DNA of 64,000 bases. Origin: Pseudomonas silesiensis (lineage in GTDB: Bacteria > Pseudomonadota > Gammaproteobacteria > Pseudomonadales > Pseudomonadaceae). The translations under genes were made by a program, and so were the position numbers. Shown piece after piece: positions 18,584-42,871 of the stretch (position 1 is the stretch's first letter; each line of letters opens with the position of its first letter). The notes under the pieces are model-generated. The model did not search any database and was not told the origin of the DNA. It saw only the letters and a list, made by a program, of their open reading frames with translations. Where the stretch lies: assembly GCF_001661075.1 (NCBI RefSeq), contig NZ_CP014870.1:620001-684000 (forward strand), in the 5' to 3' direction.

Positions 18584-18714
18584 CAATCAGGCCTTTGTCA
18601 TATCAATTGCGGCAGATTATCTATCCAGGGTTAAAAATTGCGCAAGTCATGTTTATTTGAGCAATCTTCGCAATCCTCTGCCAAGGCATCCGGCCTATTC
18701 TTATCACCAGAATC

Positions 18715-18901
18715 ACTGCTCGGACAAACAGTCCACAGCGGCTCGCCCGATCAGGCCAGCTGCGGTCGCCACCCCCACAGGGGATGAGCCGGCCCCCGAG
18801 CTGCACACTGTCCAGAAGACGGCGTGAGGTGAGCCGACGTCAAAAGCGTCGAGCACGGACGAAGTTCTCAAAGGGAGGCCGACGGGTCTCCCTTTTCTTT
18901 T
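18715..18901 (+). ncRNA. candidate small RNA ending in a strong terminator
   Basis: The 434 bases between the Lrp gene and the next plus-strand gene hold no credible open frame, yet end in a textbook Rho-independent terminator (18870-18901). Upstream hairpin-capable segments such as CCCCCACAGGGG are present, and CCTATTCTTA near 18690 resembles an RpoS-type -10. No coding gene precedes the terminator on this strand, so an independent RNA of up to ~190 bases is the simplest reading. I cannot assign it to a named Pseudomonas sRNA. The 5' end is a guess. Confidence 0.4.
18870..18901 (+). terminator. Rho-independent terminator
   Basis: AAAGGGAG (18870-18877) pairs perfectly with CTCCCTTT (18888-18895) around a 10-base loop, followed by a T-rich tract. 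On the plus strand it ends nothing annotated, which is the main argument for the RNA above. Confidence 0.8.
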
Positions 18902-25872: not shown

Positions 25873-26101
25873 TTTTACCGCTGGAGGGCGTGTGTTTAAA
25901 GGCGTTTAAGGATACTTCCTGCAAGCTACAAGACCTTGCGCCGTTGCCTACGGGTACGCCAGAATCCGCCGACTTGTGCGCTTTGGAGGCCATCGGTAAC
26001 TTGATTCCTGTCACTGCTCATCAGTGATCGGGTTTAGTCGCCCGGCTATCCATCCGCGGTTGCACAAGTGTCATCCAGTCAGGTGTTCGCCTGTACTTGA
26101 T

Positions 26102-26178
26102 GGTGGTTGTGCGCATGGCGCCCTCGGGCGCGCCGGGTTTGGGTGGCTTACCGGTCGACTAACTTGCGCACAGCCGCC
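26102..26178 (+). ncRNA. structured 5' leader of the DUF6124 gene
   Basis: A 14-bp closing stem pairs GGTGGTTGTGCGCA (26102-26115) with TGCGCACAGCCGCC (26165-26178) using two G-U pairs. Inside are a GGCGCCC-TCG-GGCGCGCC hairpin and a CCGG...CCGG pairing. The leader at 42070-42151 before the Bro-N gene has the same layout with a different sequence in the stems. The motif GTTTAGTCGC occurs on both sides (near 26033 and 26187). The element ends 54 bases before the start codon. Confidence 0.7.
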
Positions 26179-26232
26179 TCCCTTTCGTTTAGTCGCGAGA
26201 TGGTCACGGCCCCACTTAGAGGTCAACTGCCC

Positions 26233-26592
26233 ATGTTCAAACCTACACCTAATCCGCCGGACACCGATCCGGCATCCCCATACGAACCCGATTCCAAAAT
26301 GCTCAACGAGGCCGCCGAACGCGCCCTCAACGTCCACTTCCCCTCGATGGCCGACATCAAAGCCACGCCGCGCACACCCAACAACCTGTTTACCGTCAAC
26401 CCAGAGGCCACGACCGAAACCCTTGTGGTGTATCTGGTGGAAACGCTGGCCTCGGTCGATGTGATGGTCCATCAATTGGTCGATCACCTCGACGGCGGAT
26501 CGCGCAATGCGCTGCTGGGGATTTCCAACAGCGTGATGCTGGCGGAGATCACGGCGAATCGGGTGCTGGATCAGATTGATCCACCCGGGTAA
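26233..26592 (+). CDS. DUF6124 family protein
   Basis: A 119-residue soluble protein, helical after residue 20, matching the Pseudomonas DUF6124 family (earlier DUF3077). The hallmark N-terminus MFKPTPNPPDTDP is followed by SKMLNEAAERAL and, near residue 60, TVNPEATTETLVVYLVETL. Function unknown; Pseudomonas genomes usually carry several copies. The ATG at 26233 follows a long structured leader, and the frame is open 42 codons upstream through that leader, which is not coding-like. A shared regulatory RNA with the Bro-N gene suggests a common control. Confidence 0.85.
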   Translation: MFKPTPNPPDTDPASPYEPDSKMLNEAAERALNVHFPSMADIKATPRTPNNLFTVNPEATTETLVVYLVETLASVDVMVHQLVDHLDGGSRNALLGISNSVMLAEITANRVLDQIDPPG

Positions 26593-41701: not shown

Positions 41702-41716
41702 ATCGCACATCAACCG

Positions 41717-41845
41717 TGTAGGAGCGAGCTTGCTCCGGGCGGCGTTCCGACGATGGTCTCAAGAGCGCCGCGTTTAGCCAGTAAACACGCGTTATCGTTA
41801 ACGACCATCGTCGGAACGCCGCCCGGAGCAAGCTCGCTCCTACAG
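41717..41845. repeat. extended BIME with GGGCGGCGTTCCGACGAT inner arms
   Basis: TGTAGGAGCGAGCTTGCTCC continues into GGGCGGCGTTCCGACGAT, mirrored exactly on the right. The spacer core (AAGAGCGCCGCGTTTAGCCA ... GTTATCGTTAACGACCATCG) is identical to that at 28543. The right arm recurs alone at 45841. It follows the exonuclease gene. Confidence 0.9.
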
Positions 41846-41927
41846 GGGCGGTGTCCGATTTTTTTCTGTGTTTAACCACGCCTTAAATTCGACGAATGAT
41901 CCTACCGAACAATAAGGATTGTCTGTC

Positions 41928-42014
41928 TTGCCCACCATCTGCGGCATCGATAACCTCTGGGACGTCGCTGACAATCTCAGCGACCGGGCCTGCAAGCTCG
42001 TCGAGGTTTGGTAG
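41928..42014 (+). CDS. very short open frame upstream of the Bro-N leader
   Basis: A TTG-initiated frame of 28 codons (PTICGIDNLWDVADNLSDRA, then CKLVEVW) with AAGGA about 10 bases before the start. The sequence is protein-like and ends 55 bases before the structured leader. It could be a leader peptide or a relic; there is no other support. Confidence 0.2.
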   Translation: MPTICGIDNLWDVADNLSDRACKLVEVW

Positions 42015-42069
42015 ATAACTACAGTCGCACCTATAATCGCGTCGCTTTACTTGGCGACCATCGATTTAT

Positions 42070-42151
42070 GGTGGCTGTGTACGGGGTGACCTTCGGGTCT
42101 GCCGGGGTTATCTATCGACTCGGTCTTGCAGACTCGTACACAGCTGCCACC
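42070..42151 (+). ncRNA. structured 5' leader of the Bro-N gene
   Basis: GCTGTGTACG (42074-42083) pairs with CGTACACAGC (42135-42144), extended by GGTG/CACC after a 3-base bulge. Inside are the GGTGACC-TTCG-GGTCTGCC hairpin and a CCG...CGG pairing, in the same order as in the leader at 26102. A 6-bp hairpin CATCAC/GTGATG follows at 42152-42169. The start codon lies 53 bases after the main stem, the same distance as in the other leader. Confidence 0.7.
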
Positions 42152-42203
42152 CATCACCTGCAAGTGATGCTGGCATCTCCAACTTTTCGATGGATTATTC
42201 GCC

Positions 42204-42719
42204 ATGATCAAAGTTACCCCCAATCCCCCCGAAGACTCTGCGCAATCAGCTGCGTACGAAGCTCACTACCTTCCCAAAACATTCATCCGTCATCACATCC
42301 GGCTACGTGCGCTTTTATTACACGCAGAACCCTGGTTTTGCGCCCGCGATATCGGCCGGTTGATGGGGGTGGATATAAACGGCAGACAAGCGCTCAAGCT
42401 CGATGCGGATCAGCGACGGGTGATGAGTTTGTCCGGAAGCGATGACGCGCAAGAGACCTTGATGCTTAGCGAGTCAGGTGTATACGCGATGTTGGTGTAT
42501 CACTACTGCCCGGAAAACCGCCATTTGCGGCGTTGGCTAACTCACCATGTGGTGCCTATGTTGAGGGAGGAGGCGGGGCCCGTTTCGACTCAGGCGCCGC
42601 ATATGCGGGCGATGGAGTGGGCCGGTGGGACGCTGAGGCTGCTGCATTGGCGCAAAGAACCTTGGGTTCGCCTGCGTGATATGCCGGGTTTGTTGTCTGT
42701 AAGTTACAGCGGCGTTTGA
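42204..42719 (+). CDS. Bro-N domain protein with DUF6124-like N-terminus
   Basis: A 171-residue protein. The first residues, MIKVTPNPPEDS, closely match the hallmark N-terminus of DUF6124 proteins. Residues ~30-125 form a Bro-N domain (WFCARDIGRLMGV, LMLSESGVYAMLVYHYCPEN, LRRWLTHHVVPMLREE), as in phage antirepressors. The C-terminus repeats part of the pattern (LHWRKEPWVRLRDMPGLL), like a truncated second unit. Bro-N domains bind DNA or modulate phage repressors. It stands alone behind a structured leader of the DUF6124 type. Whether it comes from a prophage or is a host regulator is open. Confidence 0.8.
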   Translation: MIKVTPNPPEDSAQSAAYEAHYLPKTFIRHHIRLRALLLHAEPWFCARDIGRLMGVDINGRQALKLDADQRRVMSLSGSDDAQETLMLSESGVYAMLVYHYCPENRHLRRWLTHHVVPMLREEAGPVSTQAPHMRAMEWAGGTLRLLHWRKEPWVRLRDMPGLLSVSYSGV

Positions 42720-42728
42720 TCGATCGCT

Positions 42729-42754
42729 TTCGCGGGCAAGCCTTGCTCTACAGG
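42729..42754. repeat. single REP unit
   Basis: TTCGCGGGCAAGCCTTGCTC followed by TACAGG is a single, slightly decayed REP unit just before the BIME at 42766. Confidence 0.6.
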
Positions 42755-42765
42755 ATGTATTCGTA

Positions 42766-42859
42766 CCTGTGGGAGCGGGCTTGCCCGCGATTGCGGTGGG
42801 TCAGATAGATCAGATGTCGACTGACACACCGCTATCGCGGGCAAGCCCGCTCCCACAGG
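42766..42859. repeat. BIME: inverted REP pair (GTGGGAGCGGGC class)
   Basis: CCTGTGGGAGCGGGCTTGCC arms around GCGGTGGGTCAGATAGATCA...CTGACACACCGCTATC, the spacer type found with GTGGGAGC arms. It lies between the convergent Bro-N and Lrp genes. Confidence 0.9.
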
Positions 42860-42871
42860 GACTGTGTCGTA

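Follow-up and report, generated by a model that had tools for sequence, protein, structure and literature searches.

C4-type antisense RNAs as likely silencers of the DUF6124 and Bro-N genes behind them in Pseudomonas silesiensis

Two unrelated genes of Pseudomonas silesiensis, encoding a DUF6124 and a Bro-N protein, are preceded by similar RNA leaders, raising the question of what kind of RNA this is and what it does for the gene behind it. Both lie in the stretch of DNA analysed here (64,000 nucleotides, hereafter the window, in which all positions are counted unless stated otherwise). The first-pass annotation had described the leaders as sharing a structured layout that fits no named Pseudomonas RNA family. 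The shared layout is borne out, as both fold into a long closing stem (stem P1), an inner hairpin (P2), and a third hairpin (P3). The same holds for the 54 bases given between the first leader and its start codon (at 26233), and the 53 bases given for the second, without an end coordinate, are consistent with the layout and the gene start at 42204. The statement on family membership fails because both leaders score above the gathering score of C4 antisense RNA (Rfam RF01695, 45 bits): an Rfam search of the window found this RNA at 26096-26184 (65.0 bits, E 2.4e-10) and 42064-42154 (57.8 bits, E 1.5e-8). Both leaders are members of this named family and do not represent a new one. The window also contains the Pseudomonas sRNA P24 (RF00629) at 18638-18893 (258 bits).

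The phage P1 record annotates the order a1, b1, c4, a2, b2, icd, with a1 and b1 marked as putative (AF234172). As a positive control, bases 51-57 of the phage P1 C4 were found to pair with a1/a2, 37-44 with b2, and 38-44 with b1. The Pseudomonas RNAs resemble the C4 of phages P1 and P7 in fold, 77-base length, GG site, the placement of a' in the junction of P3 and stem P1 and of b' in the P3 loop, and the order a1-b1-C4-a2-b2-gene. In the 26-kb copy, positions 26102-26178 are probably the processed form, their 77 bases equalling the annotated phage P1 C4. The two cassettes comprise the following features.

26010..26028, plus strand: hairpin GTCACTG...CAGTGA before site a1, read from the sequence
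26029..26044, plus strand: target hairpin CGGG(TTTAGTCG)CCCG, matching the a1-hairpin pattern with 1 mismatch
26034-26040, plus strand: target a1 TTAGTCG, inside hairpin 26029..26044
26096..26184, plus strand: C4 antisense RNA, from the RF01695 alignment
26138..26146, plus strand: b' (P3 loop) TTTGGGTGG, from the C4 alignment and pairing test
26156..26162, plus strand: a' (junction of P3 and stem P1) CGACTAA, from the C4 alignment and pairing test
26189..26195, plus strand: target a2 TTAGTCG, 7 Watson-Crick pairs with a'
26212..26220, plus strand: target b2 CCACTTAGA, pairing with b' including three G-U, bordering the likely ribosome-binding site
26233..26592, plus strand: cargo gene, DUF6124 protein of 119 aa (PF19619, 80 bits, cut-off 27)
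41990..41996, plus strand: target a1 CTGCAAG, within CGGGCCTGCAAGCTCG, matching the a1-hairpin pattern with 0 mismatches
42008..42020, plus strand: target b1 TTGGTAGATAACT, from the upstream-site pairing test
42008..42037, plus strand: promoter-like TTGGTA-18-TATAAT between a1 and C4, 10 of 12 consensus positions, which is not evidence of function
42064..42154, plus strand: C4 antisense RNA, from the RF01695 alignment
42110..42118, plus strand: b' (P3 loop) ATCTATCGA, from the C4 alignment and pairing test
42125..42131, plus strand: a' CTTGCAG, from the C4 alignment and pairing test
42158..42164, plus strand: target a2 CTGCAAG, 7 Watson-Crick pairs with a'
42187..42195, plus strand: target b2 TCGATGGAT, 9 pairs with b' (one G-U)
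42204..42719, plus strand: cargo gene, Bro-N (antirepressor-type) protein of 171 aa (PF02498, 42.3 bits, cut-off 25.6)

Further copies of the RNA exist well beyond the window. The P. silesiensis genome (6.82 Mb, one contig) contains 42 C4 matches, all above the cut-off and dispersed over the chromosome, while no match was found in 14 control genomes. All 42 copies have the GG at the phage-P1-like cleavage site (position 26102 in the 26-kb copy), and a covariance model built from them detects the phage P1 C4 at 49.8 bits. Over these copies, 95.8% of the helix cells are paired, and 15 of the 27 base pairs show compensatory change on both sides. None of 500 shuffles matched any of five covariation measures and the signal lies above both controls, so that the compensatory changes reported in the first-pass annotation are real.

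The loops of these RNAs are complementary to sites beside them. When each of the 42 C4s was scored against its own target and the 41 others, at least six contiguous Watson-Crick bases at site a2 were found with the own target in 41 copies, versus 8.1% of the mismatched combinations. Mean contiguous Watson-Crick bases at site a were 7.00 for own and 3.78 for other targets, and the mean score at site b2 was 7.84 for own versus 4.47 for mismatched targets. On the sum of both sites, the own target was strictly the best of the 42 for 38 C4s, and 10,000 permutations came nowhere near the observed means. Site a alone ranked the own target strictly best in only 14 of 42 cases; it separates the C4s poorly because there are few a' types, common to many C4s, and it is b that decides. 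Loop and junction letters were set by hand for eight of the 42 copies after a crude first test, which misread the P3 hairpin in some copies and placed the own target first on site a in only 2 of 42, with a mean that still beat all 10,000 permutations. The 26-kb copy is among those with a weaker b match, its own b2 target ranking only sixth of 42 in this crude test. Model alignments without hand correction agree with these results, for a2 and b2, respectively, in 56 and 53 of 58 C4s from other Pseudomonas and in 26 and 27 of 28 from outside the genus (two sets from which 8 of 94 matches had been removed as duplicates), and for a and b in 77 and 71 of 80 named Pseudomonas loci (after removal of four weak opposite-strand matches). 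Across these three sets, no other target outscored the own one on the sum in 51 of 58, 25 of 28, and 49 of 80 cases.

We consider it very probable that each leader is a C4-type antisense unit silencing the gene behind it, and that such units have multiplied in Pseudomonas into dozens of cassettes. Homology to C4 points to an RNA that is excised and acts as an antisense RNA. As in phage P1, the unit would be transcribed together with the cargo gene, and RNase P would cleave the GG site at the base of the closing stem to release a free C4 RNA of ~77 nt. Its junction loop a' would pair with a1/a2 and its P3 loop b' with b1/b2. This pairing, with b2 on or close to the ribosome-binding site, would keep the DUF6124 or Bro-N protein from being made. 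With different a and b letters in dozens of cassettes, each C4 would mainly fit its own gene, and recombination appears to carry recognition modules from one cassette to another. The first-pass interpretation as a shared structured RNA with compensatory changes can thus be kept, but the term "structured leader" misses the likely antisense role, as two loops match flanking target sites. A leader acting only in cis, as a riboswitch or attenuator responding to a ligand or to translation without releasing a free antisense RNA, would agree with the stable fold and the position 38-55 bases before the start codon (37 own copies counted), but is highly improbable: two variable loops track two targets on both sides, in the geometry of phage P1, and the P3 loop has 52 distinct sets of letters among the 80 named loci, a variability that counts against a riboswitch because the latter would keep its core letters.

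The upstream sites extend this geometry. A site a1 in a hairpin such as CGGG-TTTAGTCG-CCCG is present at 39 of the 42 own C4s, 41 of 58 from other Pseudomonas, and 27 of 28 from outside Pseudomonas, and is followed by b1 in 30 of 39, 35 of 41, and 27 of 27 cases, respectively. For the 26-kb copy, b1 has no clear assignment, whereas a1 is present; a hairpin like the one at 26010..26028, with changed letters that still pair, precedes many other C4s by eye. With zero or one mismatch, the a1-hairpin pattern occurs at 29 places in the genome, 26 of them beside a C4 and three without, and at up to two mismatches there are 49 matches versus 20 for the reversed control. Two of the three C4-less hairpins precede DUF3077 and DUF6124 genes that have no C4. 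These hairpins, and the few a' types common to many C4s, would also fit a trans-acting network in which C4s act on other host genes, as suggested for the Acinetobacter Group 1 sRNAs; we regard this as unlikely, given that own targets fit far better than others and that a cargo-like frame or family match follows 40 of the 42 own C4s. One C4-less a1-type hairpin (L238, at about 147545 of the genome, minus strand) lies some hundreds of bases ahead of a frame that we take to resemble a PhlD-type polyketide synthase, and may be what is left of a cassette next to an inserted cluster. A promoter shared by the 42 own C4s was not found: a crude consensus scan was good only in some copies, with a best match of 10 of 12 at the Bro-N cassette and 7 of 12 at the 26-kb copy.

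Variability is also found in the cargo genes. Behind the 42 own C4s, we found 28 DUF6124 genes, four DUF3077 genes, two Bro-N genes, and six genes for small proteins (copies 5, 12, 13, 14, 36, and 40, a loose grouping by eye, of which the one scanned, copy 12, had no Pfam match), whereas copies 31 and 39 lack a cargo-like frame. Conversely, a C4 precedes 28 of the 35 own DUF6124 genes, with none near the other seven, and all 80 of the named DUF6124 loci (the best 80 of 511), a figure that is biased upwards because these loci were chosen partly by an N-terminal peptide pattern. At eight DUF6124 or DUF3077 loci apparently without a C4, a search up to E = 1 revealed no hidden copy. In copy 28 (L028, genome positions 3966381-3966466), a C4 and a DUF6124 body are present with ATA at the expected start codon. 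The Bro-N cargo of the window matches the PHROG family "anti-repressor Ant", and no solved structural relative of DUF6124 was found by sequence.

A head of the form M-x-K-x-TPNPP, seen in many Pseudomonas cargos, is common to the unrelated DUF6124 proteins and the Bro-N protein of the window. A PPx peptide close to the N-terminus is present in 25 of 37 own cargos (23 of them DUF6124), 15 of 51 from other Pseudomonas, and one of 25 from outside the genus, compared to two of 70 long window frames. PPx-type motifs can stall ribosomes, and the peptide may be relevant to the control of the cargo. The codons of the shared N-terminus MFKVTPNPPD were also considered as a C4 antisense target and rejected, since their wobble bases vary over 100 genes (Pro6: CCC 61, CCA 18, CCG 13, CCT 8; Asn7: AAT 49, AAC 47). 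The DUF6124 head is therefore conserved as a peptide and not as RNA.

What these cargos have in common may be that the cell wants them kept off, as suggested by icd/ant of phage P1 and by a homologue of the SymE toxin behind one C4 outside Pseudomonas (L140:1635-1832; 48.8 bits, cut-off 29). A possible, though doubtful, reading goes further and sees a type-I-like toxin-antitoxin system, in which C4 would act as antitoxin against a harmful small protein, and cassettes would persist because their loss is punished. It uses the same RNA mechanism as the reading we prefer. In addition to the SymE homologue, it is favoured by the phage P1 C4, which controls icd, a gene with the annotation of a cell-division inhibitor, and small proteins, matched antisense RNAs, and a scattered presence fit. 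On the other hand, two scanned DUF6124 proteins matched no PADLOC model, the window's DUF6124 protein matched no Pfam toxin family, and an addictive unit would resist decay as seen in copies 31 and 39. SymE/SymR resembles the C4 cassettes in combining a small protein with an adjacent antisense RNA that represses it. SymR is read from the strand opposite its target, unlike C4, which lies upstream of its cargo on the same strand.

Both window cassettes were compared with the corresponding loci of relatives. The Bro-N cassette (about 41736-42767) is absent from five of eight relatives' loci (L084, L086-L089), where 18 to 284 bases are found instead (alignment coordinates), and is present in L082, reduced in L083, and ambiguous in L085. 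By eye, REP-like inverted repeats flank it (41715-41845 and 42730-42860), at which several relatives have the empty site. No C4 was found at the place matching the 26-kb cassette in nine relatives' loci; there, insertion and rearrangement are indistinguishable because, short repeats aside, none of the nine can be aligned upstream of 26603. As C4 is known from phage immunity and some copies are decayed, the copies could be inert phage remnants. This is highly improbable, as six of the eight frames scanned beside the cassettes of the window belong to ordinary families (HrpB, DUF1028, M20 peptidase, RNase T exonuclease, DUF2076, and AsnC; the other two have no match), and pairing is mostly kept while same-place letters differ, which decay would not achieve.

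C4 is widespread in the genus. It was found in 54 of 59 Pseudomonas genomes, P. silesiensis included (above the cut-off in 53), with 0 to at least 54 copies per genome, a median of 17, and a sum of at least 1028; high counts may be underestimates, as up to 61 candidates were scored per genome. Among 274 gammaproteobacterial genomes, including that of P. silesiensis, 18 contain C4, with a maximum of at least six outside P. silesiensis (15 candidates scored per genome, giving lower bounds). DUF6124 is found in 47 of the 59 Pseudomonas genomes and its counts rise with those of C4 (Spearman 0.886). The fit is imperfect, as genome G009 has 38 C4s and two DUF6124 genes; other small proteins lie behind those of its C4s that were examined. 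Three C4s stand in tandem at L031:5978-6759 (genome positions 4383977-4384758), two of them without a cargo-like frame, and tandem C4s also occur in L097 and at G009:C21:16214-16512. The Pseudomonas phages phiAH14b and vB_Pae_U10 carry C4 inside annotated frames (L235:2500-2586 and L236:2273-2360), making phages a possible route of spread.

C4 specificity often differs between related species at matching positions. A comparison of 182 Pseudomonas C4 loci gave 29 pairs with both flanks in common, including three that are tandem copies within one locus; of the other 26 pairs, six keep their loop and junction letters, and 20 differ in loop or junction. Nineteen of these 20 pairs, which share members and are not independent, were rescored, omitting L052/L066 (own b scores 10.3 and 10.6, crosswise 4.6 and 5.3). 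Both own b pairings exceeded both crosswise pairings in 15 of the 19, and the own sum was higher in 18; at site a, 10 pairs differ, with the own pairing better, and nine are equal. For example, L171 and L210 share 95% (nt) and 99% (aa) of the cargo, 78% of the C4, and 60% of the leader, with b pairing scores of 9.3 and 9.3 for own versus 3.3 and 4.0 for crosswise combinations. In L161/L168 and L162/L183, the leader is not more divergent than the cargo.

The modules of C4 plus leader were traced across loci. In 19 of 30 rows (15 pairs in both directions, tallied by hand), the module best matches a locus other than the partner, with a cargo less similar than that of the partner, which suggests swapping; this is not so in 11. 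The L210 module matches that of L203 (91%, identical loop), although the L203 cargo is 72% alike compared to 95% for the partner. The pair involving L155 is probably not one cassette because L155 resembles own copy 18 most closely over the full cassette, in the cargo as well. A comparison of 163 loci gave 106 cargo pairs with an identity of 88% or more, of which 17 have a common P3 loop, 89 do not, and 17 have modules below 80%. Conversely, 95 pairs of modules reach a similarity of 92% or more, of which 88 have similar cargo and seven have cargo below 75%, including a 52-aa protein paired with Bro-N. Near-identical modules thus mostly keep similar cargo and swapping is not the rule; we read the alignments as reflecting both fast change and a degree of C4 module exchange between cassettes.

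C4, its targets, and the multi-copy C4s of Acinetobacter baumannii are already known. According to the excerpted text on the A. baumannii Group 1 sRNAs, that chromosome likewise holds many C4-like RNAs (21, of which 15 are full-length), with GG processing inferred from RNA-seq; they are treated there as sRNAs with open targets, whereas the Pseudomonas C4s mostly precede a gene with their own matching targets (PMC5320573). In Weinberg et al. 2010, C4 is listed for Proteobacteria and phages, and a c4-a1b1 motif for gammaproteobacteria and phages, the latter by its name indicating a1/b1 sites accompanying C4, as here; in its excerpted text, this account gives no Pseudomonas gene linkage, copy number, or specificity change (PMC2864571). 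Unlike the C4 of phages P1 and P7, the Pseudomonas RNAs reach dozens of copies per chromosome with differing letters, and, unlike icd/ant in phage P1, their cargos include DUF6124, DUF3077, and other small proteins besides Bro-N. In the open-licence literature, no paper on gene-linked C4 cassettes in Pseudomonas and none on DUF6124 was found among the matches listed, which include at least one paper for DUF3077.

We tentatively propose that Pseudomonas chromosomes harbour many self-silencing C4 cassettes, largely insulated from one another, whose recognition modules are exchanged between cargo genes. The "immunity type" of a gene at a given position would then switch from one close species to another, as a chromosomal counterpart of the P1/P7 heteroimmunity switch. 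If this is true, a resident C4 would block an incoming cassette of its own type, and an unmatched cassette would fire on entry. In a single chromosome, a device known from phage immunity precedes dozens of genes that are uncharacterised, and its linkage to the DUF6124 and DUF3077 families offers a testable mode of control for both. Finally, the more than 100 matched antisense-target pairs form a natural set for studying the evolution of RNA specificity with little cross-talk.
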